Origin: Thermoleophilaceae bacterium
GTDB taxonomy: Bacteria; Actinomycetota; Thermoleophilia; Solirubrobacterales; Thermoleophilaceae
DNA: 56,470 nt
Reading direction: 5' to 3'
Assembly: GCA_030447905.1 (NCBI GenBank)
Contig: JAUJNZ010000002.1
Location: 111,999 to 168,468, forward strand
Of the stretch, positions 4,593 through 38,243 are shown one piece after another. The position numbers and the translations under genes were made by a program. The stretch's first letter is position 1, and each line of letters opens with the position of its first letter. Below the pieces are notes generated by a model. It did not search any database, was not told the DNA's origin, and saw nothing but the letters and a program-made list of their open reading frames with translations.

Positions 4593-4672
4593 CCTTCGCT
4601 CTGCGCGGTGGACGGACCGGGTCGGTCGGCCACGGTACCGCCGCGCCCCGCGGCCGATAGCCTTGTCCGCCC

Positions 4673-6350: not shown

Positions 6351-6380
6351 GGTTCGTTGATCCTCGCGCCGGGCGGCGCG

Positions 6381-7067
6381 CTAACGAGGCTCCGGCGGCT
6401 CCCGCGAACGGCGCGGAGGACGCGCCTCAGTCGACCCACCCTCGCCGGGCGGCGAGGATGGATCGCTCCACGACAGATCCTCGTCGGCGCGGAGGGTTCG
6501 CTCCGGAGCAGCGCTTGGAGGCTCGGGGGTGGCGCGGGTCGTCGGGACGGGCTCCTGGTTGGCCCCCGAGCGCTCGCCGCCGCGCCGGCTCTCCATCCCG
6601 GGCGGAGGCTGCTCGAAATCCTCCGTGGCGAGCGGCCGGCGCGGGCGACCACGCTCGCGCTCTCCCCGCCGCGGGCGCTCGCGCCCGCGTCCGCCCCGAG
6701 ACGCCTCGGCGCCGGGCGTCGTGATGCCGCCGTAGAGGATCCCGGCGGAGGCCAGTACGGCCAGGAAGATGCCGACGTGGCGGTCCTCACCCTCGAGGAG
6801 GAAGACGGCGGTGATCGTCAGGGTCACGATGCCGATGCGGGTCAGGATGGCCGGCATCGACGCCCCCGACCGCGGCCCCGACCCGACCGCCCGGGCCAGC
6901 GGCAACGCCAGCGCGGCGAGCGCGAGCAGGGCGAGCAGGACATGGGTGATGCTGAAGAGCTCCCAGGCGTTCCTGTTCTCGAGCCAGGAGAAGAACAACA
7001 GGCCGAACAGCGCCACCCCGCTGACGGCCGCGATTCGCTCTCCCAGGCTCAGCGTCTTCAGGTCCAC
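6381..7067 (-). CDS. Hypothetical multi-pass membrane protein with basic C-terminal tail
   Basis: A 228-residue protein. The first ~120 residues hold four likely membrane helices (for example VSGVALFGLLFFSWLE, ITHVLLALLALAALALPLA, GIVTLTITAVFLLEG, HVGIFLAVLASAGILYGGI). The remaining ~110 residues are charged and Pro/Arg-rich without predicted structure. The start is GTG at 7067, supported by an AGAGGAG site eight bases upstream; the open frame extends to 7385 but would overlap citrate synthase. It is divergent from gltA. No family function is recognised; similar tails occur on actinobacterial membrane proteins of unknown role. Confidence 0.7.
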   Translation of the reverse strand: MDLKTLSLGERIAAVSGVALFGLLFFSWLENRNAWELFSITHVLLALLALAALALPLARAVGSGPRSGASMPAILTRIGIVTLTITAVFLLEGEDRHVGIFLAVLASAGILYGGITTPGAEASRGGRGRERPRRGERERGRPRRPLATEDFEQPPPGMESRRGGERSGANQEPVPTTRATPEPPSAAPERTLRADEDLSWSDPSSPPGEGGSTEARPPRRSREPPEPR

Positions 7068-7206
7068 CTCGGTCTCCTCTCGGGCGTCGCCCGGTGGGAC
7101 TCTAACGGTCCTTCCGGCACGCGCGCATGGCGCGGCGAGGTATCGGCCGATCGGAAAACGGATATGTCTACGGCGGAGGCGGCATCCGAGCGAGACGAGG
7201 AGACCG

Positions 7207-17861: not shown

Positions 17862-20099
17862 CTACCCCCGTTCCGCGAACGTCACCTCGCGGTCGGGCTG
17901 GACCGCCCATCCGCCGCCTCCCCAGCGCACCCGTGTGCCGTCGGCGAGCCGGGCCGAAGCCCGTCCGAGCCGCGGCTCGCCCCATAGCGTGGCCTCGAGC
18001 GGGCGCTCGTGCTCGGGGGTGTCCCCGAGCCCGCGGGCGACGTGCTCCCTCGGAGACGTGACGACGATCGATCCGCTCCGCACCCACGCAGGGATCCGCC
18101 CGAGCGGGGCAGGGGCGATCACCTCCCGGCCGCCGGACACCGCCGCGGCCGTCCAGAAGTCGATCCACTCGCCGCGCGGGAGGTAGACGCGGCGCTCGCG
18201 CGCTCCCTCCTCGAGTACGGGCGCGACCCACAGGGCCGGGCCGTAGCCGAAGGCGTCGGCGATCGTCCAGCCGCGCGGATCGCCGGGGTCGGTCAGGCAC
18301 AGCGGGCGCACGATGGGCAGACCGCAGCGCGTCGCGGTGGCCGCCGCGGCGCGCGTGTAGGGAACGAGTTGCTCGTGGAGCAGGAGGAGCTGCCGGTACA
18401 GGTCGAGGGTCTCGCGGTCGTAGGTCCACGGCTCCTGCTCGAAGCGCCCGTGAGAGTGCAGCAGCGGCGTGAAGCATCCGAGCTCGAGCCAGCGCACGAG
18501 AAGCTCCCTGGGGCAGCGCTCGACGAGGCGCCTGCCGAGATAGCCGCCCACGTCGTGCGACCAGTTGGAGAAGCCACTGGCGGCCGCCGAGAGGGTCGCG
18601 CCCACGAGCGCACCCAGCGACCAGAAGTCGCTCACCTGGTCGCCGCCCCATGTGACCCCCTCGGCCTGGGCGCCCGTCCATGCGCTCCGGGCGAACAGGA
18701 CGCCGGTCTCCGGGTGGGCCTCGCCGAGCGCACGCCGCATCGAGCGTCGGTACAGCCCCCCGTGGGCCCACGCGGCCTGGGCGCCACGGCGCCCGTCGGC
18801 GAACCGGACATCCTCGGGGAGGTAGTACCCCTCGCCGTCGTCGGCCTTGATCCCCTCGACGCCGAGCTCGAGCACCGGCCGCGCGAGCTCGCGCCACCAG
18901 GCGTCGGCGGCCTCGGACGTGAAGTCGACCGGCGAGCCCGTGCCCATCCACCACTGGGCAACGTAGGGCTCACGGCCGCCCGGGCCGCGCACGAAGTGGC
19001 CCGCCGCAGCGCCCTCGGCGTAGTTCTCGGCGGGCTCGGCGTGAAGGCGCTCCGACTCGGCGTCAGGGGGTCGCTGGCCCTCGCTCGACTCGAGGTTGAC
19101 CCACGGGGCGCACCACACCACCGTGCGCACACCGGCTTCCCGCATGCGCGCGATCAGCCCGGGGGCGTCGGGGAACTGGTGGGGGTTGAAGCGCCAGGTG
19201 TTGTACTGGGTCTCCCACGGCGAGTCGATGACGATCGCGTCGAGCGGCAGCGCGTGGCGGGCGTAGCCCTCGAAGTCATCCTCGACGTCGCTCTGGTGCG
19301 CATAGACGTCGCGGCTCTTCCAGTGCCCGTACGCCCACTCCGGCAGGAGCGCGGGCAGGCCGGTGAGCCGGAGGAGGTCGCGCAGCCGCGCCGCCGGGGT
19401 GGCGCGCGTGAGCAGGTGCAGCCGCAGCGCTCCCTCGGCGGCGCGCGTCGAGACCTCAACCGGCTCGTCGAGGCCGAACTCGGCGCCGGGGCCGTTGGCC
19501 GAGAGCCAGACCGCGTAGCCGGCGCTCGAGATCACCCAGGGCAGCGGCGCGCAGTCGCCCTGCGGCACTCCACCCACGTCGAGCAGGTCGGGGGGGCAGT
19601 CGGGGCCCGTGTAGCGGCGATCGGCTCCGAGCCGGATGCGGCGCCCGGACTGGTCGAGACGGTGGCCGTGGTTTGCGCCGAGGCCGACGAACCGCTCCCC
19701 GGCCGCTCGGCCCCAACGCGCGCCGAGGCGCAGAGGCTCGCCCGCGACCTCGAAAACGATCACGAGGCGCGCGGGCTCGAGCCGCAGCCGCAGGCAGAAG
19801 CGGCGTCCGCCTCCCGTGAGGGTCCCGTCCAGCTCGACCTCGCCGGCGCGCGCGACGCCGCCGTCAACCCGCTCGACGAGCTCCGGCGCCTCGAGCTGCT
19901 CGGCGGCGATCACGCCCTCCGTCGGCTGCACGAAGCGATCCCGACTCTCGCCGGCCGCGGCCCAGAAGGTGAGCCCGCCCAGCAGCGCCTCTCCGGCGCG
20001 CTCGAGCGTGAGCGAGAAGGGGTCGAAGCAGACCCGCAGGGACAGCGGCCAGAGGTCGAGGCGCGCTTCGCCCGCCTCGATCGACAGGCGCTCGCTCAC
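17862..20099 (-). CDS. Glycoside hydrolase family 31 alpha-glycosidase
   Basis: A 745-residue GH31 enzyme, which removes alpha-linked glucose or xylose with retention. An N-terminal beta-sandwich (about residues 1-230) leads into the TIM barrel. The nucleophile is Asp420 in GIKADDGEGYY, equal to the KTDFGE motif of YicI-type enzymes; the acid/base Asp is in VTWGGDQVSDFWSLG. YAHQSDVEDD, DSPWETQYNTWRFN and GGYLGRR further match the family. No signal peptide is seen, so it should be cytoplasmic. Start is GTG at 20099. It diverges from the PHP-glycosyltransferase gene across a 155-bp region that carries a Pho-box-like array. Alpha-glucosidase or alpha-xylosidase cannot be decided by eye. Confidence 0.92.
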   Translation of the reverse strand: MSERLSIEAGEARLDLWPLSLRVCFDPFSLTLERAGEALLGGLTFWAAAGESRDRFVQPTEGVIAAEQLEAPELVERVDGGVARAGEVELDGTLTGGGRRFCLRLRLEPARLVIVFEVAGEPLRLGARWGRAAGERFVGLGANHGHRLDQSGRRIRLGADRRYTGPDCPPDLLDVGGVPQGDCAPLPWVISSAGYAVWLSANGPGAEFGLDEPVEVSTRAAEGALRLHLLTRATPAARLRDLLRLTGLPALLPEWAYGHWKSRDVYAHQSDVEDDFEGYARHALPLDAIVIDSPWETQYNTWRFNPHQFPDAPGLIARMREAGVRTVVWCAPWVNLESSEGQRPPDAESERLHAEPAENYAEGAAAGHFVRGPGGREPYVAQWWMGTGSPVDFTSEAADAWWRELARPVLELGVEGIKADDGEGYYLPEDVRFADGRRGAQAAWAHGGLYRRSMRRALGEAHPETGVLFARSAWTGAQAEGVTWGGDQVSDFWSLGALVGATLSAAASGFSNWSHDVGGYLGRRLVERCPRELLVRWLELGCFTPLLHSHGRFEQEPWTYDRETLDLYRQLLLLHEQLVPYTRAAAATATRCGLPIVRPLCLTDPGDPRGWTIADAFGYGPALWVAPVLEEGARERRVYLPRGEWIDFWTAAAVSGGREVIAPAPLGRIPAWVRSGSIVVTSPREHVARGLGDTPEHERPLEATLWGEPRLGRASARLADGTRVRWGGGGWAVQPDREVTFAERG

Positions 20100-20161: not shown

Positions 20162-20194
20162 TTCACCAGCTCGTCACAGCAGGTTCTCGGCCCG
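20162..20194 (+). promoter_or_regulatory. Pho-box-like direct repeats before the PHP-glycosyltransferase gene
   Basis: Three pentamers at exact 11-bp spacing: TTCAC at 20162, GTCAC at 20173 and TTCTC at 20184. The known PhoP/PhoB box is built from 11-bp direct repeats with a TTCAC-like core. The orientation is toward the plus-strand gene at 20255. The same pattern precedes pstS (33626) and the CpsB-type PHP gene (31786). Confidence 0.6.
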
Positions 20195-20254
20195 ATAACC
20201 CTGGGTGAGCAGGCAATCCTACTCTCGGTACGACCACGAGAAGAAGGAGCCGAG

Positions 20255-22528
20255 ATGATCCAGCCACCGAAGAGCAGGGTCGACCTCCACTGTCACTCGA
20301 CGGCCTCCGCGGTCGGGAAGCTAGGCGTCCAGCGAGCTCTCGGGCTGCCGGAGTGCGCCACCCCGCCCGAGGAGGTCTACGAGCTCGCGAAGCGCCGCGG
20401 AATGGACTTCGTGACGATCACCGACCACGACACGATCGACGGGGCGCTCGCCATCGCCGACCGCCCGGACGCGTTTGTCTCCGAGGAGCTGACCGCGAGC
20501 TTCCGCGCAGAGCCTCAGGCGGTGCACGTCCTCTGCTACGGCATCGATGGCAACGACCACGAGTGGCTGCAGCGTCACTCAGACGACGTCGAGGCGTGTG
20601 CGGGCTACCTCGACGAGCAGGGCATCGCCTGCGCGCTGGCCCATCCCTTCTACGCGGTGGCGGCGCCGCTGACCGCCCGCCACCGCCGCCGTCTCGCCGA
20701 GCTCTTCCCGATCTGGGAGACCCGCAACGGGTCGCGCGCGCGCGAGCTCAACCTCCCGGCGGCGGTGTACATCGACACCCACGGTGGCACGAGCGTCGGC
20801 GGCTCCGACGACCACGCGGGCATCGACATCGGGCGCACCTGGACCGAAGCCCCTCCGGCCGAGACACCCGAGGAGTTCCTCGACCACCTCCGCGCCGGGC
20901 GGCTCGAGGCAGCAGGCGACCAGGGCAGCGCCGCGAAGTGGGCGCACGCCGCGCTGGCGCTCGCCGTGCGGGTCCTCGGCGCCGCCGATGTCCCGGCCGA
21001 CGGCCGGCGCGCAAGCCCCGCCGCCGTGCTCGAGCTCGTCGAGCGGGTCGTGCGCGAGGGCGGCGCGCGCACGAGCGCGGTCGGTGCCGACCTTGACCCG
21101 GCAGACGCACTGGCGTTGCTCGAGGCGTGGCTCGCGGCGCTCGAGCTGGACCTGCGCGGCCCCGAGCTGATCGCCCTGCTGCAGCACGACGACTTCAGCC
21201 ACGCGGCGCTGTTTCGGCGCGCCCGGCGCGCTCACGAGCGGGGGCTTCGGCGTGCCGCCGAGAGCGCCGTCGCGGCGCTCGAGGGCGGCGGCGAAGCCGC
21301 CGGCGCGGCCGCGGGACTGTTCGAGGCTCTGATTCCCGCGATCCCCTACGCACCGGCGGCCTCCTTCCTCGGATGTGAGAAGGCAAAGCTCGTGGCCCGG
21401 GAGGGCGAGCCGCCCCGCGTCGCGATCGTCACCGACGCGATCCAAGGCGTCCACGGGGTGACCCGCACGATCGAGGAGCTACGCGGGCGTGGCGTGCCCG
21501 GATTCGAGGTCGAGGTGGTGGGAACCGACCCGGCCGTCGACCGCCGGCTCGCGGCGGTGGCCGAGCTCGAGGTCCCCTTTTACCCCGGGCTGCAAATCGG
21601 GGTTCCGACACTGCCCGGCCTGGTCGAGGTCCTCGCGGAGGGCCGCTACGACGCGGTCCATCTGACCTCTCCCGGCCCCGCCGGGGTCGCCGCCGCACTC
21701 GTCGCCCGCACCCTGGAGCTTCCGCTCCTCGCGAGCCACCATACGGAGCTCGGGGCCTACGCGCACCTGCGCTCCGGCGACTCGACCCTCGCGGGCGGAG
21801 TCGATCTCGGGCTGGCCGCCTTCTACGGTGCCTGCGACATGGTCCTCTCGCCCAGCGCGGCGGCCGACGCGTCCCTGCGGGCCCTGGGCGTCGGCGACGA
21901 CAAGGTGGCTCGCTGGGGCCGGGGGGTCGAGCTGGCGCGGTTCGGACCGCACCATCGCGTCGAGGGCCACCTGCCCGGCGAGCTGAACGTCCTCTACGCC
22001 GGCCGGCTGACCCGGGAGAAGGGTGTCGAGCTCCTCGCCGAGTCGTTCCTCGACGCTCATGCCCGGGACCGGCGCCTGCACCTCGTGCTCGCCGGCGGGG
22101 GACCAGAAGAGGAGCTCCTGCGCGAGCGCCTCGGCGACCGCGCGACCTTCCTGGGCTGGCTCGAGGGCGACGAGCTCGCCCGGGCCTATGCGAGCGCCGA
22201 CCTGTTCCTGTTCGCGAGCACGACCGACACGTTCGGTCAGGTCATCCTCGAGGCCCAGGCGAGCGGCCTGCCCGTCGTGGCGGTGGCCGAGGGCGGGCCC
22301 TGCGATCTCGTCGAGGACGGGGTGACGGGGCTGCTGCGCCCGGCGAGGGCCGAGGCGCTGGGCCCTGCCTTGATCGCGCTGGCCTCCTCGCCGTCCGATC
22401 GCAGCCGGCTGGGGCGCGCGGGCGAGCGCTCGGCCCGCGGCCATACCTGGGAGCGCGCCCTCGTCCAGCTCGCCACCGGCTACGGGCGGGCCCTCTCGTC
22501 TCCGCTCGCGGCGGTCAGGGCCGCCTGA
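20255..22528 (+). CDS. PHP-domain / GT4 glycosyltransferase fusion protein
   Basis: A 757-residue two-domain protein. Residues 1-230 form a PHP metal-dependent phosphoesterase domain: DLHCHS (His12, His14), TDHDT, ALAHPF and GGSDDHAG are metal-site motifs. A helical stretch follows (~240-375). Residues ~385-757 are a GT-B glycosyltransferase of family 4: VAIVTDAIQGVHGVTRTIEE at the acceptor side, LLASHHTEL, LYAGRLTREKGVELLAESF and TDTFGQVILEAQASGLPVV with the donor-binding E-x7-E. GT4 members transfer sugars from nucleotide donors, often to lipids; PHP domains hydrolyse phosphoesters. ATG start behind AGAAGGAG. The upstream Pho-like array suggests induction under phosphate limitation, where glycolipids can replace phospholipids (inference). 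Confidence 0.9.
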   Translation: MIQPPKSRVDLHCHSTASAVGKLGVQRALGLPECATPPEEVYELAKRRGMDFVTITDHDTIDGALAIADRPDAFVSEELTASFRAEPQAVHVLCYGIDGNDHEWLQRHSDDVEACAGYLDEQGIACALAHPFYAVAAPLTARHRRRLAELFPIWETRNGSRARELNLPAAVYIDTHGGTSVGGSDDHAGIDIGRTWTEAPPAETPEEFLDHLRAGRLEAAGDQGSAAKWAHAALALAVRVLGAADVPADGRRASPAAVLELVERVVREGGARTSAVGADLDPADALALLEAWLAALELDLRGPELIALLQHDDFSHAALFRRARRAHERGLRRAAESAVAALEGGGEAAGAAAGLFEALIPAIPYAPAASFLGCEKAKLVAREGEPPRVAIVTDAIQGVHGVTRTIEELRGRGVPGFEVEVVGTDPAVDRRLAAVAELEVPFYPGLQIGVPTLPGLVEVLAEGRYDAVHLTSPGPAGVAAALVARTLELPLLASHHTELGAYAHLRSGDSTLAGGVDLGLAAFYGACDMVLSPSAAADASLRALGVGDDKVARWGRGVELARFGPHHRVEGHLPGELNVLYAGRLTREKGVELLAESFLDAHARDRRLHLVLAGGGPEEELLRERLGDRATFLGWLEGDELARAYASADLFLFASTTDTFGQVILEAQASGLPVVAVAEGGPCDLVEDGVTGLLRPARAEALGPALIALASSPSDRSRLGRAGERSARGHTWERALVQLATGYGRALSSPLAAVRAA

Positions 22529-23187: not shown

Positions 23188-23322
23188 TTGACGCTCCGTA
23201 GAGAGAGGGCATGCAACGATCGCCCGACGCCCGAGCTGCGGCGTGTCGGCCGCGCGCTGGCCTTCTTCCTCGCTTGCGCTGCGCTCTTCGCCGGCGCGAT
23301 GGCGATCGGACTGTTTCACTGA
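23188..23322 (+). CDS. Possible 44-residue membrane miniprotein
   Basis: A TTG-initiated frame ends eight bases before the VTT gene and reads ELRRVGRALAFFLACAALFA then GAMAIGLFH: a basic N-terminal part and one membrane helix. The position directly upstream of a membrane-protein gene and the in-phase hydrophobic run suggest a real short gene, but start and existence are uncertain. Confidence 0.35.
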   Translation: MTLRRERACNDRPTPELRRVGRALAFFLACAALFAGAMAIGLFH

Positions 23323-23329
23323 GCGGCGC

Positions 23330-23998
23330 GTGAGGCGACTGGCGTGCCGGCTCGCCTCGCCTCGGACTCGCCTCGCGGCCCTGGGCGCAACGCTCGCCGC
23401 GGGCGTGCTCCTGGTGCTCCTGCTCGGCGTTCCCTCGCCAACCGACATCCGGACCGCGATCGATGGCGCCGGTCTGGCCGCGCCGCTCGTGTTCGTTGCG
23501 CTCTACGCACTGCTCACCGTCTTCCTCGTTCCCGCAGCGCCGGCGTCGCTCGCCGCCGGGGCACTGTTCGGGGTGGCCGCGGGCACCGCCCTGGTCGCCG
23601 TCGGCGCGACGCTGGGCGCGACCGGCGCCTTCTTGGTCGCGAGGCGGCTCGGCCGGCCGGAGGTCGAGCGGATCGTCGGGCGCCGCTCGGTGCGCGTCGA
23701 CCGCTGGCTCGAGCGCAACGGCTTTCTCGTCATGCTCTACGCCCGGCTCGTACCCATCGTTCCGTTCAACGTCCTCAACTACGTCGCCGGGGCGAGCGCC
23801 CTATCGGTACGCGACTATGTACTCGCCACCTCCGTCGGCATCCTGCCGGGGGCCTTCGCCTACGTGGCGCTCGGCGGCTCGCTGGACGAGCCCGGCTCTC
23901 CCCAGTTCCTGATCGCGGTCGGCCTGGTGCTCGTGCTCGCGGTCGCGGGTCCGCTCGTTGGCCGCCGGCTGGGACCTGCCGGCGACTCCGACTCCTAG
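23330..23998 (+). CDS. VTT (DedA/TVP38)-family membrane protein
   Basis: A 222-residue integral membrane protein of the VTT/SNARE-associated family, whose members are proposed lipid scramblases or ion-coupled transporters. The core motif is recognisable: FLVPAAPASLAAGALFG (re-entrant loop), GATGAFLVARRLGR, and ARLVPIVPFNVLNYVAGASA (second re-entrant region with conserved Arg and Pro), followed by GILPGAFAYVALGG. GTG at 23330 is chosen because the frame upstream lacks coding character. A second family member lies at 41374 with the same order of motifs. Confidence 0.85.
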   Translation: MRRLACRLASPRTRLAALGATLAAGVLLVLLLGVPSPTDIRTAIDGAGLAAPLVFVALYALLTVFLVPAAPASLAAGALFGVAAGTALVAVGATLGATGAFLVARRLGRPEVERIVGRRSVRVDRWLERNGFLVMLYARLVPIVPFNVLNYVAGASALSVRDYVLATSVGILPGAFAYVALGGSLDEPGSPQFLIAVGLVLVLAVAGPLVGRRLGPAGDSDS

Positions 23999-28072: not shown

Positions 28073-30268
28073 CTATCGCACCGCCGCCGGCGTCTCGGTC
28101 GCAAGCGACGCGCCGTCGCCCGGCGCTGCCCGCCGCATCGCCCGCTCCATCAGCTCCGCGTGGACCGCTCGGTCCCCGCCCTCGCGCCGGCGCCAGGTCC
28201 CGTCGGCCTCGAGCTCCCAGGCGAAGGTGTCGTCGGCCAGGCAGCGCTCGAGCGTATCCTCGAGCTCGGCCCGCAGATCGGGCGATCGCACCGGGGCGAG
28301 CAGCTCGACCCGGTTGTCGAGGTTGCGGGGCATGAGGTCGGCCGAGCCGATCCAGTACTCGCTCTCGCCGGCGCCGTGAAAGGCGTAGATGCGCGAGTGC
28401 TCGAGGAAGCGGCCCACCACCGACACGACGCGCACGTTCTCGCTGACCCCCTCGAGCCCGGCCCGCAGGCAGCAGATCCCGCGCACGTTCAGGTCGACGG
28501 GCACGCCCGCCTGCGAGGCCCGGTAGAGAGCGCGGATGCACTCCCGGTCGACCAGCGAGTTCATCTTCATGACGATGCGGGCATCGCCGTGCTCGCGCTG
28601 CGCGTCGATGGCGCGGTCGATCCGGTCGAGCAGCCAGTCGCGTAGCTGTCCGGGCGCCACGACGATCTTGCGGTAGTGGCGTGGACGGCCGTAGCCGGTC
28701 AGCGAGTTGAACAGCTCGGCCACGTCGGCGGCGATGTCGGGGTCCGTGGTGAACAGACCGAGGTCCTCATAGATGCGCGAGGTCTTGGCGTGGTAGTTGC
28801 CCGTTCCGACGTGCACGTACCGCCGGACACCCGCGCCCTCGCGCCGGACGACCACGAGCGCCTTGGCGTGGGTCTTCAGTCTCGGCAGGCCGTGGACGAC
28901 GTGAGCGCCCGCCTCCTCGAGCGACCGCGCCCAGGCGATGTTGCGATCTTCTTCGAAGCGGGCCTTCAACTCGACGAGGCATACCGCCTGCTTGCCGCTC
29001 TCGGCCGCGTCGATCAGCGAAGGGACGAGCGCCGCATCGTCGGAGGTGCGATAGACGGTGAGCTTCACGGCAAGCACGTTGGGATCCTCGACGGCCTGCT
29101 CTACGAGACGCTCGACGCTCGCCGAGAAGGAGTCGTAGGGGTGGTGGACGAGCAGGTCTCGCTCGCGCATGCGCGCGAAGAGGTCGGGCTTGCGGTCGTC
29201 GGTGGCGGCGAAGGTACGAGTCGCCACCGGGCTCCACGGCTGCTCGCGGAGCTCGTGGTGGCCCTCGACCTCGTAGACCTCCCACACGTCCCCGAGGTCG
29301 AGGAGGCCCTCCACGTCGTAGACCTGTCGCTCCTCGAGGTTGAGCCACTCGACGAGCCGCCGCCGCAGCTCCGGATCCATGTTGGCGCCGACCTCGAGGC
29401 GCACGACCTCGCCGAAGCGCCGCCGGCGGAGCTCGTCCTCGACGGCTCGCAGCAGGTCGTCGGCGTCGTCTGAGACGGTGAAGTCGGCGTCGCGGACGAC
29501 GCGGAAGACCTCGTGGTGGAGGATCTCCATCCCGGGGAACAGGGAGTCCAGGTGGCGTGCGATCGCGCTCTCCAGCGGCACGAGACTGTCCTTGCCGATC
29601 GACACGAAGCGCGGTAGAAGCTCCTTGGGCACCTTGACGCGCGCGAAGACCTCGGCCTTGCTCTCGGGGTCGCGCAGCCACACCGCGAGGCTCAGCGACA
29701 GGTTCGATATGTAGGGAAAGGGCCGACCCGGGCCGACGGCGAGCGGGGTCAGCACCGGCAGGATCTGCTCGCGGAAGTGGGAGTCGAGCTCTTCGAGGTC
29801 GGCCTTCGAGCACTCCTCGCACGCGATGACCTGTATCCCGGACTCGGCCAGGGCGGGGCGAACGCGGTGCTCGAACTCCTCCGCCTGACGGTTCAGGAGC
29901 GCCTGCGCCTTCCCCGACACCGCGTCGATCACCTCGCCGGCCGATAGGCCGTCAGCTCCGCGCGCGTCGATGCCGGCGTCGACCTGGTTGTGCAGCCCCG
30001 CCACCCGGACCATGAAGAACTCGTCGAGGTTCTGGGCGAAGATGCCCAGGAACTTGACCCGTTCGAGCAGCGGGACGCTCTCGTCCTCGGCCAGCTGAAG
30101 GATCCGGTCGCTGAAGTCGAGCGCCGAGAGCTCGCGGTTGACGAAGAGGTCGCTGCGGCCCTCGAGGGACTGGGCGGCCGGCGGCGTATCGCCGTCGGCG
30201 CTCGCCTGCATCGAGGTGGCGTCGGCGACCTCCAGCTCCTCCGTGCGGCCTTCGGTGGCGGAGCTCAC
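28073..30268 (-). CDS. ppk1: Polyphosphate kinase 1
   Basis: A 731-residue PPK1, which polymerises the gamma-phosphate of ATP into polyphosphate and can run in reverse. The order is typical: N-terminal domain (FVNRELSALDFSDRILQLAE), head domain (FLGIFAQNLDEFFMVRVAGL), then two phospholipase-D-like C domains with RLKTHAKALVVVRREG (the HAK motif with the phosphorylated His), YVHVGTGNYHAKTSRIYEDL, and YWIGSADLMPRNLDNRVELL. The GTG start at 30268 overlaps the TGA of ppx (GTGA), so ppx and ppk form a coupled unit. The first ~35 residues are extra and probably disordered. The gene lies 1.5 kb from a Pho-boxed PHP phosphatase and 3.5 kb from pst. Confidence 0.96.
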   Translation of the reverse strand: MSSATEGRTEELEVADATSMQASADGDTPPAAQSLEGRSDLFVNRELSALDFSDRILQLAEDESVPLLERVKFLGIFAQNLDEFFMVRVAGLHNQVDAGIDARGADGLSAGEVIDAVSGKAQALLNRQAEEFEHRVRPALAESGIQVIACEECSKADLEELDSHFREQILPVLTPLAVGPGRPFPYISNLSLSLAVWLRDPESKAEVFARVKVPKELLPRFVSIGKDSLVPLESAIARHLDSLFPGMEILHHEVFRVVRDADFTVSDDADDLLRAVEDELRRRRFGEVVRLEVGANMDPELRRRLVEWLNLEERQVYDVEGLLDLGDVWEVYEVEGHHELREQPWSPVATRTFAATDDRKPDLFARMRERDLLVHHPYDSFSASVERLVEQAVEDPNVLAVKLTVYRTSDDAALVPSLIDAAESGKQAVCLVELKARFEEDRNIAWARSLEEAGAHVVHGLPRLKTHAKALVVVRREGAGVRRYVHVGTGNYHAKTSRIYEDLGLFTTDPDIAADVAELFNSLTGYGRPRHYRKIVVAPGQLRDWLLDRIDRAIDAQREHGDARIVMKMNSLVDRECIRALYRASQAGVPVDLNVRGICCLRAGLEGVSENVRVVSVVGRFLEHSRIYAFHGAGESEYWIGSADLMPRNLDNRVELLAPVRSPDLRAELEDTLERCLADDTFAWELEADGTWRRREGGDRAVHAELMERAMRRAAPGDGASLATETPAAVR

Positions 30269-31224
30269 GGCTCGCTCGGCGTCCCCGAGGCCAGCGGTCG
30301 CCCCGCGGCCGGCGACTCGGCGAACGCGCCGTCGGAACCGACCGCCGGGCGCAGGCCGCCCGCGAGCTCGAGGATCAGGCCCTCGCGCAGGCCTCCCTGC
30401 CCGACGGCGATCGGCTGGCCGATCGGACCGAGCAGGGCTTCGAGGATCAGGGCACCGCCGGGAAGCAGTCGCGCGCGCTCGGGAACGAGGTCGAACCGCT
30501 CGGCGATCTCCGAAGCGGGCGCCGAGGTGAGGATCTCGAGCGCGCGGGAAAGCGTGGCGAGGTCGAGCTCCTGCCCCACGAGCTTTCGCAACGAGCGGGC
30601 GCTGCCCCCCACCGCCACCGAGCCTTCGGTCGGTGGGGTCTCGAGGCCCTCGAAGGCCTTCGCGACCTCGGCCCGCGCGGCGTCGAGCTCGCCGTCGCGG
30701 GGCGGGTCGGACTTCAGGTGCAGGTCGAGCAGGACGCCCGATCCCATCGGAGTCGACCGCCACCAGGAGACGCCGTCGGTGACGGTGCCGACGGCGATCT
30801 CGACCGAGCCCCCGCCGATGTCGACGACCGCAACGGTGCCCGGGACCGGCGCTCCCAGGGTCTTGGTGGCTCCCACGAAGGCCAGGCGCGCTTCCTCCTC
30901 GTCGGAGAGGACCTCGACGTCCACGTGAGCGACCCGGCCGATCACGGCCACGAGCTCGTCGCCGTTCGCGGCCTCGCGAACCGCCGCCGTGGCCACGACG
31001 ACCACCTCGCGCACCCCGAGCTCGCGGGCGAGGCGAGCCTGCGTGCCCACGACCTCGGCGGTGTCGGCGATCTTGTCGGACGTAATCCGCCCCGATGCGC
31101 GCAGCCCCTTGCCCACGCGCGTATACGCCCGTTGGCTCGCGAGCTCGCGCAACCGGCCGCCGCGGCACTCGGCCACGAGCAGCCGTGTGGTGTTGCTGCC
31201 GATGTCGATGCAGGCGTAGGTCAC
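30265..31224 (-). CDS. ppx: Exopolyphosphatase / GppA-family phosphatase
   Basis: A 319-residue ASKHA-fold phosphatase of the Ppx/GppA family, which releases phosphate from polyphosphate ends or from pppGpp. ACIDIGSNTTRLLVAE is phosphate loop 1, VVDIGGGSVEIAVG is loop 2 with the catalytic region, and VAVGGSARSLRKLVG follows. It is the short two-domain type common in Actinobacteria and lacks the C-terminal HD domain of E. coli Ppx. GTG start with a TAGGCT hexamer seven bases upstream suggests a leaderless message. It is the first gene of the ppx-ppk pair, an unusual order that puts the degrading enzyme first. Confidence 0.94.
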   Translation of the reverse strand: MTYACIDIGSNTTRLLVAECRGGRLRELASQRAYTRVGKGLRASGRITSDKIADTAEVVGTQARLARELGVREVVVVATAAVREAANGDELVAVIGRVAHVDVEVLSDEEEARLAFVGATKTLGAPVPGTVAVVDIGGGSVEIAVGTVTDGVSWWRSTPMGSGVLLDLHLKSDPPRDGELDAARAEVAKAFEGLETPPTEGSVAVGGSARSLRKLVGQELDLATLSRALEILTSAPASEIAERFDLVPERARLLPGGALILEALLGPIGQPIAVGQGGLREGLILELAGGLRPAVGSDGAFAESPAAGRPLASGTPSEP

Positions 31225-31733: not shown

Positions 31734-31785
31734 CGGCGGGAACTGTAACCGCGGCGCCCGATCATCGCCAGCTCTTCCCAGGTCC

Positions 31786-31818
31786 TTCACGGGTTTCTCA
31801 CCGGCTCTTCACTTCCGC
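31786..31818 (+). promoter_or_regulatory. Pho-box-like direct repeats before the CpsB-type PHP gene
   Basis: Three pentamers at exact 11-bp spacing: TTCAC at 31786, CTCAC at 31797 and TTCAC at 31808, oriented toward the gene starting at 31846. This fits the 11-bp direct-repeat plan of actinobacterial PHO boxes. The array could also affect the divergent sixA-like gene, whose start is 53 bp away. Confidence 0.7.
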
Positions 31819-31845: not shown

Positions 31846-32613
31846 ATGCCCAGACCTGTCGCGTCCGCGCGCACCGAGATCCACTGCCACCTCCTGCCCG
31901 GAATCGATGACGGGGCGCGGGACCTCGATGACAGCGTCGACATGGCCGCGGTCGCGGCGGCAGATGGGACCGCCACCATTCTCGCCACCCCACACGTGCG
32001 GTCGGACTTCGTGACCGACGTCTCGATCCTGCCCGAGCTCGTCGCCGAGCTTCGCGCCAACCTCGCCCTGGCCGGCGTCAAGGTCGAGGTGCACTGCTCG
32101 GGAGAGCTCGGCCACGAGCTCGTGGGCCGGTTGGGTCAGGTCGAGCTCGAAACGATCGCCTCGGGGCCCTCGGGGCGGCGCTGGCTGCTGGTCGAAGCGC
32201 CCTTCGACGGCCTCGGCGAAGAGTTCACGGCCGCCACCGGCGAGCTGCGGGCGAGGGGCTTCGGCGTGGTCATCGCCCACCCCGAGCGCAGCCCGGGCGT
32301 CCTCGAAGGCTGCCGCGAAGCGCTGGGGCTGGAGATCGAGCGGGGCAGCCTGCTGCAGGTCAACCAGTGGTCGCTGACCGGCGGCCACGGCGCCGAGGCC
32401 GAGGCGGCGGGGCTAGCGCTCCTGCGTCAGGGCCGGGTCGCCGTGCTCGCCTCGGACTCACACCCCGGCTGGCGCCGCCCGACGCTCAGCGTGGGCGCCG
32501 CCGCCGCCCAGGCCGCGGGCCTCGACGCCGGCTCGGCCGCCCTGCTCGTCACCGACCGCCCGGCGAGCCTGGTGCGCGACGGGATCGCCGCACCGGTCGG
32601 AACCGGGGCTTGA
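31846..32613 (+). CDS. PHP-domain phosphatase, CpsB/YwqE type
   Basis: A 255-residue PHP-fold metallophosphatase. EIHCHLLPGIDDGARD is the signature of the CpsB/CapC/YwqE group (Mn-dependent tyrosine-protein phosphatases of capsule regulation); ILATPHVRSD, FGVVIAHPERSPG and VAVLASDSHPG supply the remaining metal ligands. Family members dephosphorylate bacterial tyrosine kinases, but no kinase or capsule operon is nearby. The Pho-like array upstream and the pst/ppk surroundings instead suggest phosphate scavenging or signalling from phosphoesters (inference). Cytoplasmic; no signal peptide. Convergent with the response regulator. Confidence 0.88.
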   Translation: MPRPVASARTEIHCHLLPGIDDGARDLDDSVDMAAVAAADGTATILATPHVRSDFVTDVSILPELVAELRANLALAGVKVEVHCSGELGHELVGRLGQVELETIASGPSGRRWLLVEAPFDGLGEEFTAATGELRARGFGVVIAHPERSPGVLEGCREALGLEIERGSLLQVNQWSLTGGHGAEAEAAGLALLRQGRVAVLASDSHPGWRRPTLSVGAAAAQAAGLDAGSAALLVTDRPASLVRDGIAAPVGTGA

Positions 32614-32666: not shown

Positions 32667-33518
32667 CTACGAGCGCCCGGCGGCGAGTGCCTCGCTGCGG
32701 TTTTCGAGCGGGGGACCGGGCGCATCGATCTGGCCCTCGAGCGGGGAGTCGAGCACCGCTGTGTCGGTTGTCGACGAGATCCGCTCCTCGCCAGGTCCGG
32801 AGCTCCCCTCGAGAGGCTCGGGCTGGAAGCGATAGCCGATCCCGAAGTGGGTGTGGATGTAGCTCCAGCGCGGTGAGGCTCCCTCGATCTTCGAGCGCAG
32901 CTTGCGAACGAAGACATCGACCGAGCGGTCGCCGTGGGCCATCGCGTAGCCCCACACCCGCTGGTAGATGTCCTCGCGCTGGAGCACCTGTCCCTCCGCC
33001 TCGGCGAGCAGCTGGAGAACCTCGAACTCGCGACGGGTCAGCTCGACGCTCCGTCCGGCGACGAAGGCCTGGAACTGGTCCACGCGCAGCTCCAGGTCGC
33101 CGAGCACGAGCGGCCCGGCATCGACCGGTGCCCGAGCGCGGCGGCGGCGGCGAGCCACGGCCTCCAGGCGCGCGACCACCTCCTCGGGGTGGCATGGCTT
33201 CGAGATCCAGTCGTCGGCCCCGAGCCGCAGGCCGCGGACGCGCTGGGCCACCGTCGAGCGCTCGGTGCAGACCACGATCCCGAGCCCCGGAAGCGCCTCG
33301 CACACGCGCGCGAGGTATTCCCACCCGAGGCTGCCCAGGCACGCCGGGTCGAGTAGCAGGGCGTTGAGTCGCATGGCCACGAGCTCCGCCGGCGGCACCG
33401 AGGACGTCTGGGCGCGGAACTGCCAGCCGGCGCTCTCGAGCCGGTTGGTCAGCACGCGCACGAAGCCCGAGTCGTCGTCGACGATGGCGAGTCGGAGCTT
33501 TCCCGAGGACATGGTCAT
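32667..33518 (-). CDS. OmpR/PhoB-family response regulator
   Basis: A 283-residue two-domain regulator. The receiver domain has the acidic pocket AIVDDDSG, phospho-acceptor Asp57 in ALLLDPACLG, a Thr switch in VVCTERST and Lys in WISKPCHPEEV. The winged-helix DNA-binding domain (ELTRREFEVLQLLAEAEGQV, HGDRSVDVFVRKLRSKIEG, THFGIGYRF) is of the PhoB type. About 50 extra Ser/Glu/Pro-rich residues follow. ATG at 33518 (or 33512). It diverges from pstS across 213 bp carrying Pho-box-like repeats, so it is the best local candidate for the regulator that binds them. No histidine kinase is encoded beside it. Confidence 0.92.
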   Translation of the reverse strand: MTMSSGKLRLAIVDDDSGFVRVLTNRLESAGWQFRAQTSSVPPAELVAMRLNALLLDPACLGSLGWEYLARVCEALPGLGIVVCTERSTVAQRVRGLRLGADDWISKPCHPEEVVARLEAVARRRRRARAPVDAGPLVLGDLELRVDQFQAFVAGRSVELTRREFEVLQLLAEAEGQVLQREDIYQRVWGYAMAHGDRSVDVFVRKLRSKIEGASPRWSYIHTHFGIGYRFQPEPLEGSSGPGEERISSTTDTAVLDSPLEGQIDAPGPPLENRSEALAAGRS

Positions 33519-33625
33519 GGGAGTGGCGCGGATACCCGAGCCGCGACGAGTGTAGGGCAGCGGCCGGGCACTAAAGACCCGCAAGGCCGCAACCTCCGGC
33601 GATCCCCGTCCCTCACCCGTTGCCA

Positions 33626-33669
33626 TTCACATCTTCTTCACAACCCGGCCACAGTTCGGTAACAGGCTG
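33626..33669 (+). promoter_or_regulatory. Pho-box-like repeats in the pstS promoter
   Basis: TTCAC at 33626 and 33637, then weaker GCCAC at 33648 and GTAAC at 33659, all at exact 11-bp spacing. A TAGGTT hexamer at 33684-33689 is a reasonable -10. The position upstream of pstS, the classic Pho-regulon gene, supports the reading. Confidence 0.75.
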
Positions 33670-33731: not shown

Positions 33732-34679
33732 GTGAAGCCAACGATGTGGCTCTTCCTCGGGCTCGCAGGAGCTCTCGCGCTGGTCGGTGCCGCCTGTGGC
33801 GGGAGCGGCGGCGGTGGCGGCGGGGCCGGAGACCTCTCCGGCACCATCCAGGTCGACGGGTCATCGACCGTGCAGCCTTTCGCGCAGGCCGCGGCCGAGC
33901 TCTTCCAGGAGGAGAACCCGGGCGTGCGCATCACCGTGGGCGGCGCCGGCACCGGTGACGGCTTCGAGCGCTTCTGCCGCGGCGAGACCCAGGTCTCCGA
34001 CGCCTCGCGGGCGATCGAGGCCGAGGAGCAGGAGGCCTGCGAGAAGGCGAACGTCGAGACCGAGCAGGTCCCGGTGGCCAACGACGGCATCGCGGTGGTG
34101 ACCAACAAGCAGCTGCGGCTCGACTGCATGACCGTCGACGAGCTCAAGGACTTCTTGGGCCCGGACGCCGACGCGAAATCCTTCAGGGACGTCAACCCCA
34201 AGTTCCCCGCCCAGCAGGCGTCGTTCTTCACGCCGGGCGAGGAGTCCGGGACGTTCGACTTCTTCACGGAGGAGGCGCTCGAGACCGACGCCGAGCAGCG
34301 CACCGACGGCGTCCAGACCTCCGCCGACGACAACCAGCTGGTCACAGGCGTCTCCGGCACCCCCGGCGGCATCGGCTACTTCGGCTTCTCGTTCTTCCAG
34401 CAGAACCAGGAGAAGCTGAACGCCGTCGCCATCGATGGTGGCGACGGGTGCGTCAAGCCGAGCACCGAGACGATCCAGAACGGCACGTACAAGCCGCTGG
34501 GACGGCAGATCTTCATGTACCCGAGCAAGAAGGCGATGCAGCGGCCGGAGGTCGCGGAGTTCATGCGCTTCACGGCCGAGAACGCCCCGCGCATCGCCGA
34601 GGCGGCGCAGATCGTCCCGCTCACCGGCGAGCAGGTCTCCGAGGCCCAGAAGGCCGTACAGACCCTGGCCGGCAGCTAG
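33732..34679 (+). CDS. pstS: Phosphate ABC transporter substrate-binding lipoprotein
   Basis: A 315-residue periplasmic-type phosphate-binding lipoprotein. The N-terminus is a lipoprotein signal peptide with lipobox VGAAC (Cys at residue 22), followed by a Gly/Ser linker. TIQVDGSSTVQPFAQAAAEL and TVGGAGTGDGFERFCRGETQ are phosphate-site segments, and FTPGEESGTFDFFTEEAL matches the PstS family. It captures inorganic phosphate and passes it to PstCA. GTG start at 33732 behind AAGGAG. First gene of pstSCAB-phoU, under a Pho-box-like promoter. Confidence 0.96.
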   Translation: MKPTMWLFLGLAGALALVGAACGGSGGGGGGAGDLSGTIQVDGSSTVQPFAQAAAELFQEENPGVRITVGGAGTGDGFERFCRGETQVSDASRAIEAEEQEACEKANVETEQVPVANDGIAVVTNKQLRLDCMTVDELKDFLGPDADAKSFRDVNPKFPAQQASFFTPGEESGTFDFFTEEALETDAEQRTDGVQTSADDNQLVTGVSGTPGGIGYFGFSFFQQNQEKLNAVAIDGGDGCVKPSTETIQNGTYKPLGRQIFMYPSKKAMQRPEVAEFMRFTAENAPRIAEAAQIVPLTGEQVSEAQKAVQTLAGS

Positions 34680-34701
34680 CAGAGAAGCCGCCGGGGCTCG
34701 C

Positions 34702-35655
34702 ATGGAAGCAGCGCCCACCGCCGCCGCGGGCGGTCCGCCTCCTAATCTCGCTCGGGGGCGGACGCCCCGGTCGGTGGGCGAGCAGGTCATCAAGGCGCTG
34801 CTGTTCGTGGCGGCCGCGCTCTCGATCGCCACCACCACGGGCATCGTCGTCTCTCTACTGTCGGAGACGATCCGGTTCTTCGGCGAGGTGCGGATCGGCG
34901 AGTACCTCCTCGGCACGAAGTGGACGCCGCTCGCCGGCGGCGATCAGCAGTCCTTCGGCGTCGTGCCCTTGATCACGGGCACCCTTTACCTGACCGCACT
35001 GGGACTTATCGTCGCCGTGCCGCTCGGCCTCGGGTCGGCGATCTACCTCGCCGAGTACGCCTCTCACAGCGCGCGGCGGGTGATCAAGCCGGTGCTCGAG
35101 CTCCTCGCCGGTATCCCGACCATCGTGCTCGGCTACTTCGCGCTCACGTTCATCACCCCGGTGGTCCTGCAGGGCATCCTCGGGATCGAGGTTCAGATCT
35201 TCAATGCCCTATCGGCGGGGCTCGCGCTCGGCGTCCTGATCCTCCCGGTGGTGGCCACGCTCGCCGACGACGCCCTGCGCGCCGTACCCGGATCGCTGCG
35301 GGAGGGCGCCTTCGGGCTCGGGGCCTCGAAGCCACAGGTCGTCATGCGCGTGGTCTTTCCGGCCGCTCTGTCGGGGATCGTCGCGGCGCTCGTGCTCGCC
35401 GCCTCGCGGGCGATCGGCGAGACCGTCGTCGTGCTCGTGGCCGGGGGGGCGAACGCCAACCTCGGCCTCGATCCCCGTGAGAGCTACCAGAACATGGCCG
35501 CCTTCATCGCCCAGACCGCGCGCGGCGACATCGCCGTGCAGTCGGTCGAGTTCCTGACGATCTTCGCGGTGGGCACGACCCTGTTCGTGATGACGCTGGT
35601 CCTCAACGCGATCTCGATCCGGTTCGTGCGTCGCTTCCAACAGGTCTACGAATGA
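34702..35655 (+). CDS. pstC: Phosphate ABC transporter permease PstC
   Basis: A 317-residue inner-membrane permease with about six helices. PLITGTLYLTALGLIVAVPL, the permease-loop region LRAVPGSLREGAFGLGASKP and SRAIGETVVVLVAGGANANL are typical of PstC. It forms the phosphate channel with PstA, powered by PstB. ATG at 34702, 22 bp after pstS. The stop overlaps the pstA start (ATGA). Confidence 0.95.
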   Translation: MEAAPTAAAGGPPPNLARGRTPRSVGEQVIKALLFVAAALSIATTTGIVVSLLSETIRFFGEVRIGEYLLGTKWTPLAGGDQQSFGVVPLITGTLYLTALGLIVAVPLGLGSAIYLAEYASHSARRVIKPVLELLAGIPTIVLGYFALTFITPVVLQGILGIEVQIFNALSAGLALGVLILPVVATLADDALRAVPGSLREGAFGLGASKPQVVMRVVFPAALSGIVAALVLAASRAIGETVVVLVAGGANANLGLDPRESYQNMAAFIAQTARGDIAVQSVEFLTIFAVGTTLFVMTLVLNAISIRFVRRFQQVYE

Positions 35656-36554
35656 GCGTCACGGAGGTCCCCGCCTCGCGCGCCGTCGTGCAGCGCGCCT
35701 CGCGCGGCGAGCGGGTGGGCGAGCTGCTGTTCCCCGCGGCGCTCCTGCTCTGCGTCGGCTTTGCGATGCTGGCGCTCGCCGTCCTGATCGTCGACGTCGC
35801 CGCCGACGGCCTGCAGGTGTTGTCGATCGACTACCTGACGAGCTTTCCGTCGCAGGTCTTCCCCGAGAACTCGGGGGTCCAGTCGGCGCTCGTGGGCACG
35901 CTGCTGCTGATGGCCGTGTGCGCGGTGTTCATCGTGCCGGTCGGCACCGCCACCGCGATCTACCTCGAGGAGTACGCCGACCGCGACCGCTGGTGGAACC
36001 GCCTGATCGAGGTCAACATCCAGAACCTCGCGGCCGTGCCGTCGATCGTCTACGGCATCCTCGGACTGGCCTTCCTGGTCCGCGGGCCGCTCGAGCTCGG
36101 TCGCGTCGTGCTGGCGGGTGCTCTGACGCTCGGGCTGCTCGTCCTCCCCGTGGTGATCATCGTCGGCCGCGAGGCCATCCGCGCCGTGCCGGGTTCGATC
36201 CGAGAGGGATCGCTCGCGCTCGGCGCCACGCAGTGGCAGACGATCTGGAAGCAGGTGCTCCCCGGCGCCCTGCCCGGGATCGCCACCGGGGTGATTCTCG
36301 CCCTCTCGCGCGCGATCGGCGAGACCGCGCCGCTGATCGTGGTCGGAGCGGTCGCCTTTGCGCGGTTCAATCCCAACGACCTGACCGACGACCCGTTCTC
36401 GGCCCTGCCGATCCTGATCCTCGAGTGGGTACAGGCGCCCCAGGAGGAGTTCCGCGTGCTCGCGGCCGGGGCGATCCTGGTCCTGCTCGCCCTGCTGCTG
36501 GTGATGAACGCGGGGGCGATCTACCTGCGCAACCGCTACGAGCAGAAGTGGTAG
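35652..36554 (+). CDS. pstA: Phosphate ABC transporter permease PstA
   Basis: A 300-residue permease, partner of Pst[41 protein letters not shown] (EAA-type loop that contacts PstB) and [18 protein letters not shown] identify it. Its ATG overlaps the pstC stop by four bases, so translation is probably coupled. Length and helix number are normal. Confidence 0.95.
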
Positions 36555-36591
36555 CGCGGGCTTATCTTCGTCGATCCGAAAGGACGGTAGG

Positions 36592-37542
36592 GTGAGACAG
36601 GTGACCGAGCGACCTGAGAGCTCGTCAGAGCCCCAGTCGGCCGAGACCGCCCCGAGCGCCCAGCGGATCCCCCCGGCCGCCGATCGCGCCGACGGGCGCG
36701 CCCGCGGTCCGGGCACGCCCCCCGCCGTAGAGGGCGTCGGCCACGCGGCCACCGGCCCCGAGACCCCACGCGTGTTCGAGATCGAGCGCCTGACCGTCCG
36801 CTACGCGGGCCGGCCCGCGGTGTGCGACGTCAGCTTCCCGATCCACGAGAAGCGGATCACCGCGCTGATCGGGGCGTCGGGATGCGGCAAGAGCACCTTC
36901 ATCCGGTCGCTCAACCGCATGAACGACCTGATCCCGAGCGCGACCGTGGAGGGCTCGGTGCGCTACCACGACCAGGACCTCTATGGCCCCGACATCGACC
37001 CCGTGCTCGTGCGCAAGCGGATCGGCATGGTCTTCCAGAAGCCGAACCCCTTTCCCAAATCGATCTACGACAACATCGCCTTCGGGCCGCGCGTGCTGGG
37101 CATGGACGGCGACATGGACGAGATCGTCGAGCGCGCTCTGCGTCGGGGCGCCCTGTGGGACGAGGTCAAGGACCGCCTCAAGCAGAACGCCTTCGGGATG
37201 TCGGGCGGCCAGCAGCAGCGACTGTGCATCGCCCGGGCGCTGGCCACCGGCCCCGACGTGATCCTCATGGACGAGCCCGCCTCGGCGCTCGACCCGATCT
37301 CCACCGGGCGCATCGAGGACCTGATGTTCGAGCTCAAGGACCGCGTCTCGATCGTTATCGTCACCCACAACATGCAGCAGGCCGCCCGCGTGTCCGACAT
37401 GACCGCCTTCTTCACGGTGGTCGTAGACGAAGAGTCGGGCCACCGCCACGGCGAGGTCGTCGAGTACGACGAGACCGAGAAGGTCTTCACCAACCCGGCG
37501 GACTCGCGGACGGAGGCCTACGTGACCGGCCGAGTCGGCTGA
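36592..37542 (+). CDS. pstB: Phosphate ABC transporter ATP-binding protein PstB
   Basis: A 316-residue ATPase. Walker A is GASGCGKST, the Q loop is [20 protein letters not shown], the signature is [16 protein letters not shown], and Walker B is [13 protein letters not shown], with the switch His in [13 protein letters not shown]. The catalytic part (residues ~61-316) has the usual PstB length of ~256; the first ~60 residues are an extra Pro/Glu/Arg-rich, probably disordered segment. GTG at 36592 follows a GGACGGTAGG stretch; a second GTG three codons on is possible, and a start nearer the ABC fold would remove the extension. The stop and the phoU start share one base (TGATG). Confidence 0.95.
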
Positions 37543-38243
37543 TGGTCGAGGCCCGCCTGCACTTCCAGGAGGAGCTGGGGGCCCTCGAGCACCAGGCGCT
37601 CGAGGGCCTCGACATGGTGGTCGCCGCGATGGAGCGCACGCTCGAGGCCGTGCTGCACCAGGACGTCGAGCTCGCGAGCTACGTGATCGCCGACGACGAC
37701 CGCATCGACGGCCGCTACCTCGAGGTGCGCCAGGGCATCCTCTCCCTGCTGGCGCGCCAGGCCCCGGTGGCCTCCGACCTGCGCCTGATCGCGGCCCTGC
37801 TCGACCTCATCCGGGCGATCGAGCGCATGGGCGACCAGTGCGTGAACGTCTCGAAGCTCGTGCCGCTGGTCGGGCGTGAGCCGCCGACCGAGCAGGAGAT
37901 CCTCGCGCGCGTCGAGCGCATGGGCCGCCAGGCGATCTCGCAGGTGGCCCAGGCCAAGCAGGCGTTCGCTCGCCGTGACGTCCAGCTCGCCGAGGACCTG
38001 GTGCGCCAGGACGACGAGATCGACCGCCTCAACCGCGAGATCTTCTCGCTCGCCCTCGACGCCGGCGACGAGCCCGACGCGCGCGAGTGGGGCATGACGA
38101 TGCTGCTCGTGGCCCGCTCGATCGAGCGCGTGGGCGACAACGCCGTGGACATCGGGGAGCAGACGGCGTTCGTGGTCACCGGCGAGTTCCGCGAGTTCAC
38201 CGACGCCTCCCATCCCGAGATCCAGTCCGGCGCCGTCCACTGA
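37542..38243 (+). CDS. phoU: Phosphate signalling protein PhoU
   Basis: A 233-residue protein of two three-helix bundles. The repeated metal-binding motifs are visible: IRAIERMGDQCVNVSKLV in the first bundle and ARSIERVGDNAVDIGEQTAF in the second (E-R-x-G-D-x-x-x-[ND]). PhoU links the state of the Pst transporter to the PhoR/PhoB signal pathway and limits phosphate uptake. It is translationally coupled to pstB. No phoR-type kinase is in the window. Confidence 0.95.
   Translation: MVEARLHFQEELGALEHQALEGLDMVVAAMERTLEAVLHQDVELASYVIADDDRIDGRYLEVRQGILSLLARQAPVASDLRLIAALLDLIRAIERMGDQCVNVSKLVPLVGREPPTEQEILARVERMGRQAISQVAQAKQAFARRDVQLAEDLVRQDDEIDRLNREIFSLALDAGDEPDAREWGMTMLLVARSIERVGDNAVDIGEQTAFVVTGEFREFTDASHPEIQSGAVH

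Follow-up and report, generated by a model that had tools for sequence, protein, structure and literature searches.

The 56,470-nucleotide stretch of Thermoleophilaceae bacterium contig JAUJNZ010000002.1 analyzed here (the window) contains a gene (20255..22528, + strand) for a 757-residue protein that joins a PHP-type phosphoesterase domain to a family 4 glycosyltransferase (GT4), and a four-unit, PHO-box-like array of 11-bp repeats lies 5' of this gene (20162..20205, +). The regulatory sequences and the gene context make it very probable that the fusion gene is Pho-regulated. To the wider proposal, that the protein is a two-domain enzyme of phosphate-saving membrane remodeling, doing the work of the PlcP and Agt pair without being homologous to it, we give an even chance.

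The first-pass annotation described three repeat units, and all three are present at exact 11-bp steps (TTCAC at 20162, GTCAC at 20173 and TTCTC at 20184); it overlooked a fourth, ATAAC at 20195, which is kept in relatives. PHO boxes are paired direct repeats of 11 nt in Escherichia coli, Streptomyces and other bacteria (PMC4415409), and the fusion gene has at least two such direct repeats at its 5' side; two recognized phosphate genes of this genome, pstS and the gene for PhoX, are preceded by similar arrays. A chance origin of the array is rejected by a Markov null model, by pattern counts in the genome and by the fixed 11-bp period. Three-unit scores of at least 13/15 did not occur in 30 first-order Markov copies of the window, which itself holds such arrays at 20162 (score 13), at 31786 with an overlapping frame at 31775 (14) and at 33626 (13). 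Genome-wide statistics consist of two pattern searches: TTCAC-N7-TCAC-N7-TC has three sites in the 2.58-Mb genome, two of them in the window (20162 and 31786), against none for the reversed control, and a related pattern with one mismatch permitted has 19 sites against six for its control. A putative -10 element, TACTCT, follows at 20220..20225 (+), and in the closest relatives similar hexamers (TAGTTT, TAGCTT or TAGTCT) occupy the same place.

The array is also conserved. Among 40 loci, namely the window and 39 relatives in which the start of the gene could be set automatically, TTCAC-N7-TCAC at a period of 11 occurs upstream of the fusion, no more than 200 bp from the PHP motif, in 24, and the same spacing test at periods of 7-10 and 12-19 finds it in none. 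Elsewhere in those loci, over 1.2 million strand-bases, the pattern has 48 sites, many of them before pst-linked genes. When six upstream regions are aligned, the invariant bases 5' of the gene cluster on the four units, and the flanks are barely alignable; such exact periodicity beside divergent flanks is hard to explain other than by conservation of the array, even though counts across related species are not independent. Column frequencies over 34 loci give the consensus TTCAC-N6-nTCAC-N6-TTnnC-N6-TTCAC/GTAAC. The PHO box is clear in Solirubrobacterales; in more distant families the arrays are looser (for example TTCAC-GCCAC-GTAAC in locus L136) or none is recognizable, and for locus L126 the box is not clear.

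It had been claimed that three arrays in the window share this form and that two of them precede genes for PHP-domain proteins, and this holds, orientation included. The array at 31775..31812 (+; TTCCC-TTCAC-CTCAC-TTCAC, 14/15) precedes a CpsB/CapC-type PHP phosphatase gene (31846..32613, +; PF19567, 1.3e-29), and that at 33626..33663 (+; TTCAC-TTCAC-GCCAC-GTAAC, score 13) precedes pstS (33732..34679, +; TIGR02136 over its cut-off), which is followed by pstC, pstA, pstB and phoU (34435..38243, +; TIGR02138, TIGR00974, TIGR00972 and TIGR02135 over their cut-offs). Relatives have an array before the pst operon too. Elsewhere in the same genome, GTCAC-TTCAC-TTCAC-TTTAC precedes the open reading frame (ORF) of the alkaline phosphatase PhoX (PF05787, 1.7e-52). 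The candidate regulator of these arrays is an OmpR/PhoB-type response regulator with Response_reg and Trans_reg_C domains (32667..33626, -), whose PhoB-, RpaB- and MtrA-like matches all lie under the equivalog cut-offs. As a separate observation, the array before the CpsB/CapC-type PHP gene is the best in the window, the array of its L039 orthologue is weaker (12/15), and in L078 the orthologue adjoins the fusion.

Gene order in relatives bears out the assignment to a Pho-type regulon. In L050, L054 and L057 the order is pstS-pstC-pstA-pstB-phoU-ppx-fusion-ppk-DUF47-pit, confirmed by Pfam in L054 and similar in other loci; in Patulibacter (L071-L073 and L084) the fusion adjoins DUF47 and pst genes, and in L141, which belongs to a different family of the class, it has pstB/C/S-phoU on one side and ppk-ppx on the other. 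The gene had been called a distant member of the regulon, a wording that is right on membership and understates the linkage, the gene being inside the phosphate cluster in several lineages. In the window itself, ppk (28073..31168, -; an over-long ORF of Ppk1 type, TIGR03705 at 773.8 bits, over cut-off) is 5.5 kb and pst 11 kb from the fusion. A phosphate gene lies within 8 kb of the fusion in 21 of 46 loci, a set with many short contigs, whereas a rough guess for 2-5 Mb genomes with a handful of phosphate loci would give one or two by chance.

The protein comprises a PHP domain (residues 1-225; 20255..20929, +), a linker of predicted helices without strands (226-385; 20930..21409, +) and a GT4 domain of GT-B fold (386-757; 21410..22525, +). 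From its sequence and predicted fold it is probably soluble, with no membrane span. The PHP half matches PHP_C over the Pfam cut-off (26.6 bits against 21.3) and PHP proper (PF02811) under it (21.0 against 26.4); the C-terminal half matches GT4 domain models far over cut-off. An AlphaFold2 model from a 34-fusion alignment reached a predicted local distance difference test score (pLDDT) of 87 and a predicted template modeling score of 0.83, and the PHP half folded alone had a pLDDT of 79.8. The closest folds to the PHP half are BVU_3505 (Z 17.0 over 194 residues), TM0559 (Z 17.0 over 182) and BAD_1165 (16.6), followed by RNase AM (13.7) and CV1693 (13.2); those to the GT half (residues 384-752) are MshA (36.4), sucrose-phosphate synthase (36.2), BshA (34) and PimA (32.8).

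Both active sites are retained. The PHP domain has the fold of its superfamily together with the metal-ligand set (H12, H14, D57, H58, E78, H91, H130, D185 and H187), and the GT half combines the GT-B fold with an E/D-x7-E donor site (D658-x7-E666) as well as R584, K589 and H496. Across 54 fusions with identities down to about 35%, H12, H14, D57, H58, E78, H130, D185 and D186 are invariant, and H187 is present in 53 and H91 in 51; in the GT half all 54 keep R584 and E666, 53 have D or E at 658, 52 have K589 and 51 have H496. A degenerate PHP domain, the outcome named beforehand as telling against the proposal, is rejected because the metal ligands are near-invariant; L126 is the exception, with H91D and H187Y in the PHP half and H496S, K589A and D658G in the GT half.

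That a single polypeptide carries both domains was likewise correctly read: domain matches fall at both ends of the ORF, and because full-length homologues with 60-78% identity exist in dozens of genomes, a frameshift or assembly artefact is rejected. The search for further fusions proposed at the outset matched 68 of 151 relatives; matches from the contig search are Solirubrobacterales, including Solirubrobacter, Patulibacter and Conexibacter. At E<=1e-30, 96 of 299 genomes from the class give a match, a few through GT4 only. Four of 39 genomes of a second family, which belongs to a different lineage of the phylum, also have the fusion, one of them on a truncated contig. Wherever a PHP domain of this type was detected in the searched genomes, it was part of a long open frame with GT4 (at least 770 residues, the truncated contig excepted), and the PHP half was not found in plasmids.

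We posit the following sequence of events. Under phosphate scarcity, a PhoP/PhoB-type regulator would bind the four 11-bp repeats and turn on the fusion gene together with pst and PhoX, so that induction by phosphate limitation is what we infer for this gene. The PHP domain would then cleave the phosphate ester of a phospholipid or its precursor, perhaps phosphatidate or a head group, to yield phosphate and diacylglycerol (DAG), and the fused GT4 would draw on a sugar donor to glycosylate that DAG, or a glycosyl-DAG, giving a phosphorus-free glycolipid. These parts are not equally secure. A DAG-type lipid as the acceptor of the GT is slightly favored; supply of that acceptor by the PHP domain through phosphate removal is a tentative suggestion, the weakest part of the scheme and mechanistically unproven, drawn by analogy with PlcP, from the fusion itself and from a linkage to btaA. 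We know of no PHP protein that acts on lipids. More doubtful still is the furthest extension, in which the PHP domain would be an intracellular phosphoesterase of a novel kind that degrades phospholipids, as a phospholipase C or a phosphatidate phosphatase, and is permanently tied to a DAG glycosyltransferase, one protein turning phospholipid into glycolipid. This converter would have arisen in deep-branching Actinomycetota without common origin with PlcP-Agt, and could work with BtaA/BtaB to give betaine lipid instead.

The envelope-lipid theme of the first-pass annotation is nonetheless moderately supported, in part by the relatives of the GT half. Of the annotated relatives tested, a Tsukamurella GT scores highest (145 bits; 98% of the domain aligned at 35% identity). 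Its gene order, menD-DUF3592-GT-menaquinone methyltransferase-polyprenyl synthase-M48 protease, we take to be that of the Rv0557 (MgtA) locus, menD-Rv0556-Rv0557-menG. The product of MgtA is mannosyl-glucuronosyl-diacylglycerol (PMC3229680). MgtA, the GDP-mannose-dependent enzyme of Corynebacterium and Mycobacterium, may be related to the GT4 half of the fusion, to judge from this Tsukamurella protein; unlike that half it is free-standing, and it is surrounded by menaquinone genes and active on a glucuronosyl-DAG acceptor. Among the NCBIfam matches listed for the GT half there is no MgtA model; the best model, GlcNAc-phosphatidylglycerol synthase, scores far under its cut-off.

A second link to lipids comes from L126, where the fusion is followed directly, in one run (1354-4982, -), by a DUF3419 protein (2e-112) and then a Methyltransf_23 protein. 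DUF3419 is BtaA, and BtaB matches Methyltransf_23 (PMC6642084); in Agrobacterium and relatives BtaA draws on DAG supplied by PlcP (PMC3972451), and the two typical neighbors of plcP under PHO boxes are btaAB and agt, one or the other standing behind plcP in remodeling operons (PMC4796936), as btaAB do in marine bacteria. DUF3419 is rare, present in one of the 39 genomes of the L126 family and three of 399 in the class; chance is therefore an improbable explanation for its adjacency to the fusion, which is nevertheless one instance only. With its apparently degenerate GT site, the L126 fusion looks as if it had given up the sugar step. Deacetylases beside the fusion in other loci add to the envelope-lipid theme: PIG-L deacetylases adjoin it in L128, L130, L140, L142 and L143, and DUF2334 in others, which suggests that some lineages add and then deacetylate an N-acetyl sugar.

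The system had been put forward as a candidate for something undescribed. The gene family does seem to be so in the searchable open literature, where nothing relevant was found on a PHP-GT fusion under phosphate starvation; the overall logic, in contrast, is that of the known PlcP-Agt systems of Sinorhizobium, Agrobacterium, SAR11 and the Roseobacter clade. There, too, a PHO box precedes the genes of a phosphoesterase and a GT4; these are Pho-regulated, as the fusion gene probably is, and have btaA and btaB as alternative partners, which adjoin the fusion, as a btaA and a btaB-like gene, in L126 only. They differ in that PlcP is a calcineurin-like phosphoesterase encoded apart from its GT, whereas in Thermoleophilia and the second actinobacterial lineage both predicted activities reside on one polypeptide. 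Since its phosphoesterase domain is PHP and not Metallophos, the fusion is no member of the PlcP-Agt group and is claimed only to work likewise. Fusion of a phosphoesterase to a GT4 appears to have arisen more than once: a 742-residue Sulfitobacter faviae plasmid protein (L177, 4966-7194) joins an N-terminal calcineurin-like domain (PF00149, 2e-5) to a C-terminal GT4 for which monoglucosyl-DAG synthase is the top NCBIfam model (176 bits, under cut-off). It shares the one-polypeptide design with PHP-GT4, yet belongs to the Alphaproteobacteria, uses another phosphoesterase superfamily and represents an independent fusion; relatives of its N-terminal half occur on many Pseudosulfitobacter plasmids. 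Genes for an LPG_synthase_TM protein and for a phosphatase of PhoD type lie near the Sulfitobacter gene.

Several observations weigh against phosphate-saving lipid remodeling. The nearest folds to the PHP half are nucleotide or RNA phosphatases or uncharacterized proteins, with no lipid enzyme among them, and searches by sequence for solved relatives of this half gave only weak matches, none convincing. The fold of the GT half resembles MshA and sucrose-phosphate synthase no less closely than PimA. The one btaA-linked fusion has partly degenerate GT and PHP residues, many of the 46 loci are without a nearby phosphate gene, and the fusion is spread patchily among relatives.

In a different, unlikely reading the product is a soluble glycoside: the GT4 would join a sugar to a phosphorylated small acceptor and the PHP domain would dephosphorylate the product, as sucrose-phosphate phosphatase does after sucrose-phosphate synthase, yielding a solute and recovered phosphate. 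By profile as well as by fold, the best matches of the GT half are MshA and sucrose-phosphate synthase, enzymes whose acceptors are soluble and phosphorylated. PHP enzymes are typically phosphomonoesterases, and the fold matches of this one include RNase AM, CV1693 and TM0559; these COG0613-type proteins (with BAD_1165; RNase AM is also YciV) share its fold and metal ligands, whereas the known ones have nucleotides or RNA as substrates and no GT4 fused to them, and their structural alignments with it show about 20% identity. The PIG-L deacetylases beside the fusion in the five loci named above count here too, such enzymes being partners of GlcNAc-transferring (N-acetylglucosamine-transferring) GT4s. 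The systems SPS/SPP (the sucrose-phosphate pair) and MshA/MshB have in common with the fusion the GT4 fold and, in idea, glycosyl transfer coupled with dephosphorylation; SPP, however, is a HAD phosphatase, and the fusion is, judging from its array, probably Pho-regulated, a context that a soluble glycoside explains less directly. Mycothiol, with the fusion supplying MshA and its missing phosphatase, is rejected: the MshA equivalog scores 72.8 bits against a cut-off of 462.5, and MshC exceeds its cut-off in none of 61 relatives, the sub-threshold matches seen in all genomes, E. coli included, being presumably cysteinyl-tRNA synthetase. Moreover, R506, which aligns with the conserved loop Arg of MshA, is Leu or Ile in more distant fusions, and the MgtA-like similarity and the btaA-btaB-like operon favor lipids.

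Still less probable is a role in a phosphorus-free envelope polymer, modeled on the replacement of teichoic acid by teichuronic acid, in which the GT4 would help to make a glycan that takes the place of a phosphate-rich wall polymer and the PHP domain would process a phosphorylated carrier or precursor, or regulate as CpsB does. The CpsB/CapC-type PHP gene behind the same array, neighbor to the fusion in L078, fits this idea, as do the DUF2334 and second GT4 genes beside some fusions and the matches to TuaC-like GT4 models. Those matches are under cut-off, however, and the GT half is no closer to TuaC than to lipid GTs; a polymer needs more than one GT, and no recurrent flippase, polymerase or initiating transferase was seen beside the fusion. 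Least probable is an incidental fusion, in which the PHP domain would be a phosphate scavenger or nuclease-like phosphatase and its reaction unrelated to that of the GT, the two being merely co-induced by phosphate limitation: nucleotide and RNA phosphatases are among the fold matches and PhoX, another phosphatase, is also under the array, but a PHP type that, in the searched genomes, was seen only with GT4 over two lineages is unlikely to have been kept so strictly by accident.

Lipid remodeling under phosphate starvation is a well-known response of Proteobacteria and marine plankton, and we found no literature account of it in Thermoleophilia, whose Solirubrobacterales are abundant soil actinobacteria. 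If the proposed remodeling is correct, the fusion would serve as a marker gene for this process in soils, a superfamily of phosphoesterases without known lipid-active members would be added, and bacteria would have joined phosphate recovery and sugar addition in one enzyme. Culturable hosts, Solirubrobacter and Patulibacter, exist; Solirubrobacter soli (L051) and Patulibacter minatonensis (L072) each have the gene.

Further features flank the fusion. A GH31 glycoside hydrolase gene (17862..20099, -) is divergent from it and shares the 155-bp intergenic region with the array; the divergent GH31 neighbor recurs in 22 loci, may be co-regulated with the fusion and might recycle an alpha-glycoside. 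On the 3' side and the same strand lies a gene for a VTT/DedA-domain membrane protein (23243-23998, +), of a superfamily that includes lipid transporters. In L141, a PF04185 phosphoesterase of phospholipase C/acid phosphatase type (6213-8138, -) is encoded two genes behind the fusion, with an alpha/beta hydrolase in between.

Arrays were also noticed before other genes. Perfect or near-perfect three-unit arrays at L048:1033, L050:296, L054:1436, L071:11200, L073:5163, L075:1484, L084:13129 and L086:1498 precede genes for short OmpR-type winged-helix proteins (100-140 residues) beside pstS; that of L054 is without a receiver domain by Pfam, and these proteins possibly constitute a receiver-less Pho regulator. 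The ORF behind an array in L090 (with NDLHGH) and an ORF in L095 were considered as nucleotidase-like and nuclease-like, respectively, and Pfam gave no confirmation of either. At about 1500-1545 of L091, a three-unit TTCAC-type array on the opposite strand lies just 5' of a glutamine synthetase-like gene; could this reflect a link between phosphate and nitrogen control, as in Streptomyces? The window itself holds a weaker fourth array, ATAAC-TTCAC-TACAC-GTTAC (23067-23030, -), before an ORF of 39 codons that would encode a hydrophobic peptide (MIEFTLGIAAAIFVHRWVRSAGAALGIPAVTVTALAVLL).

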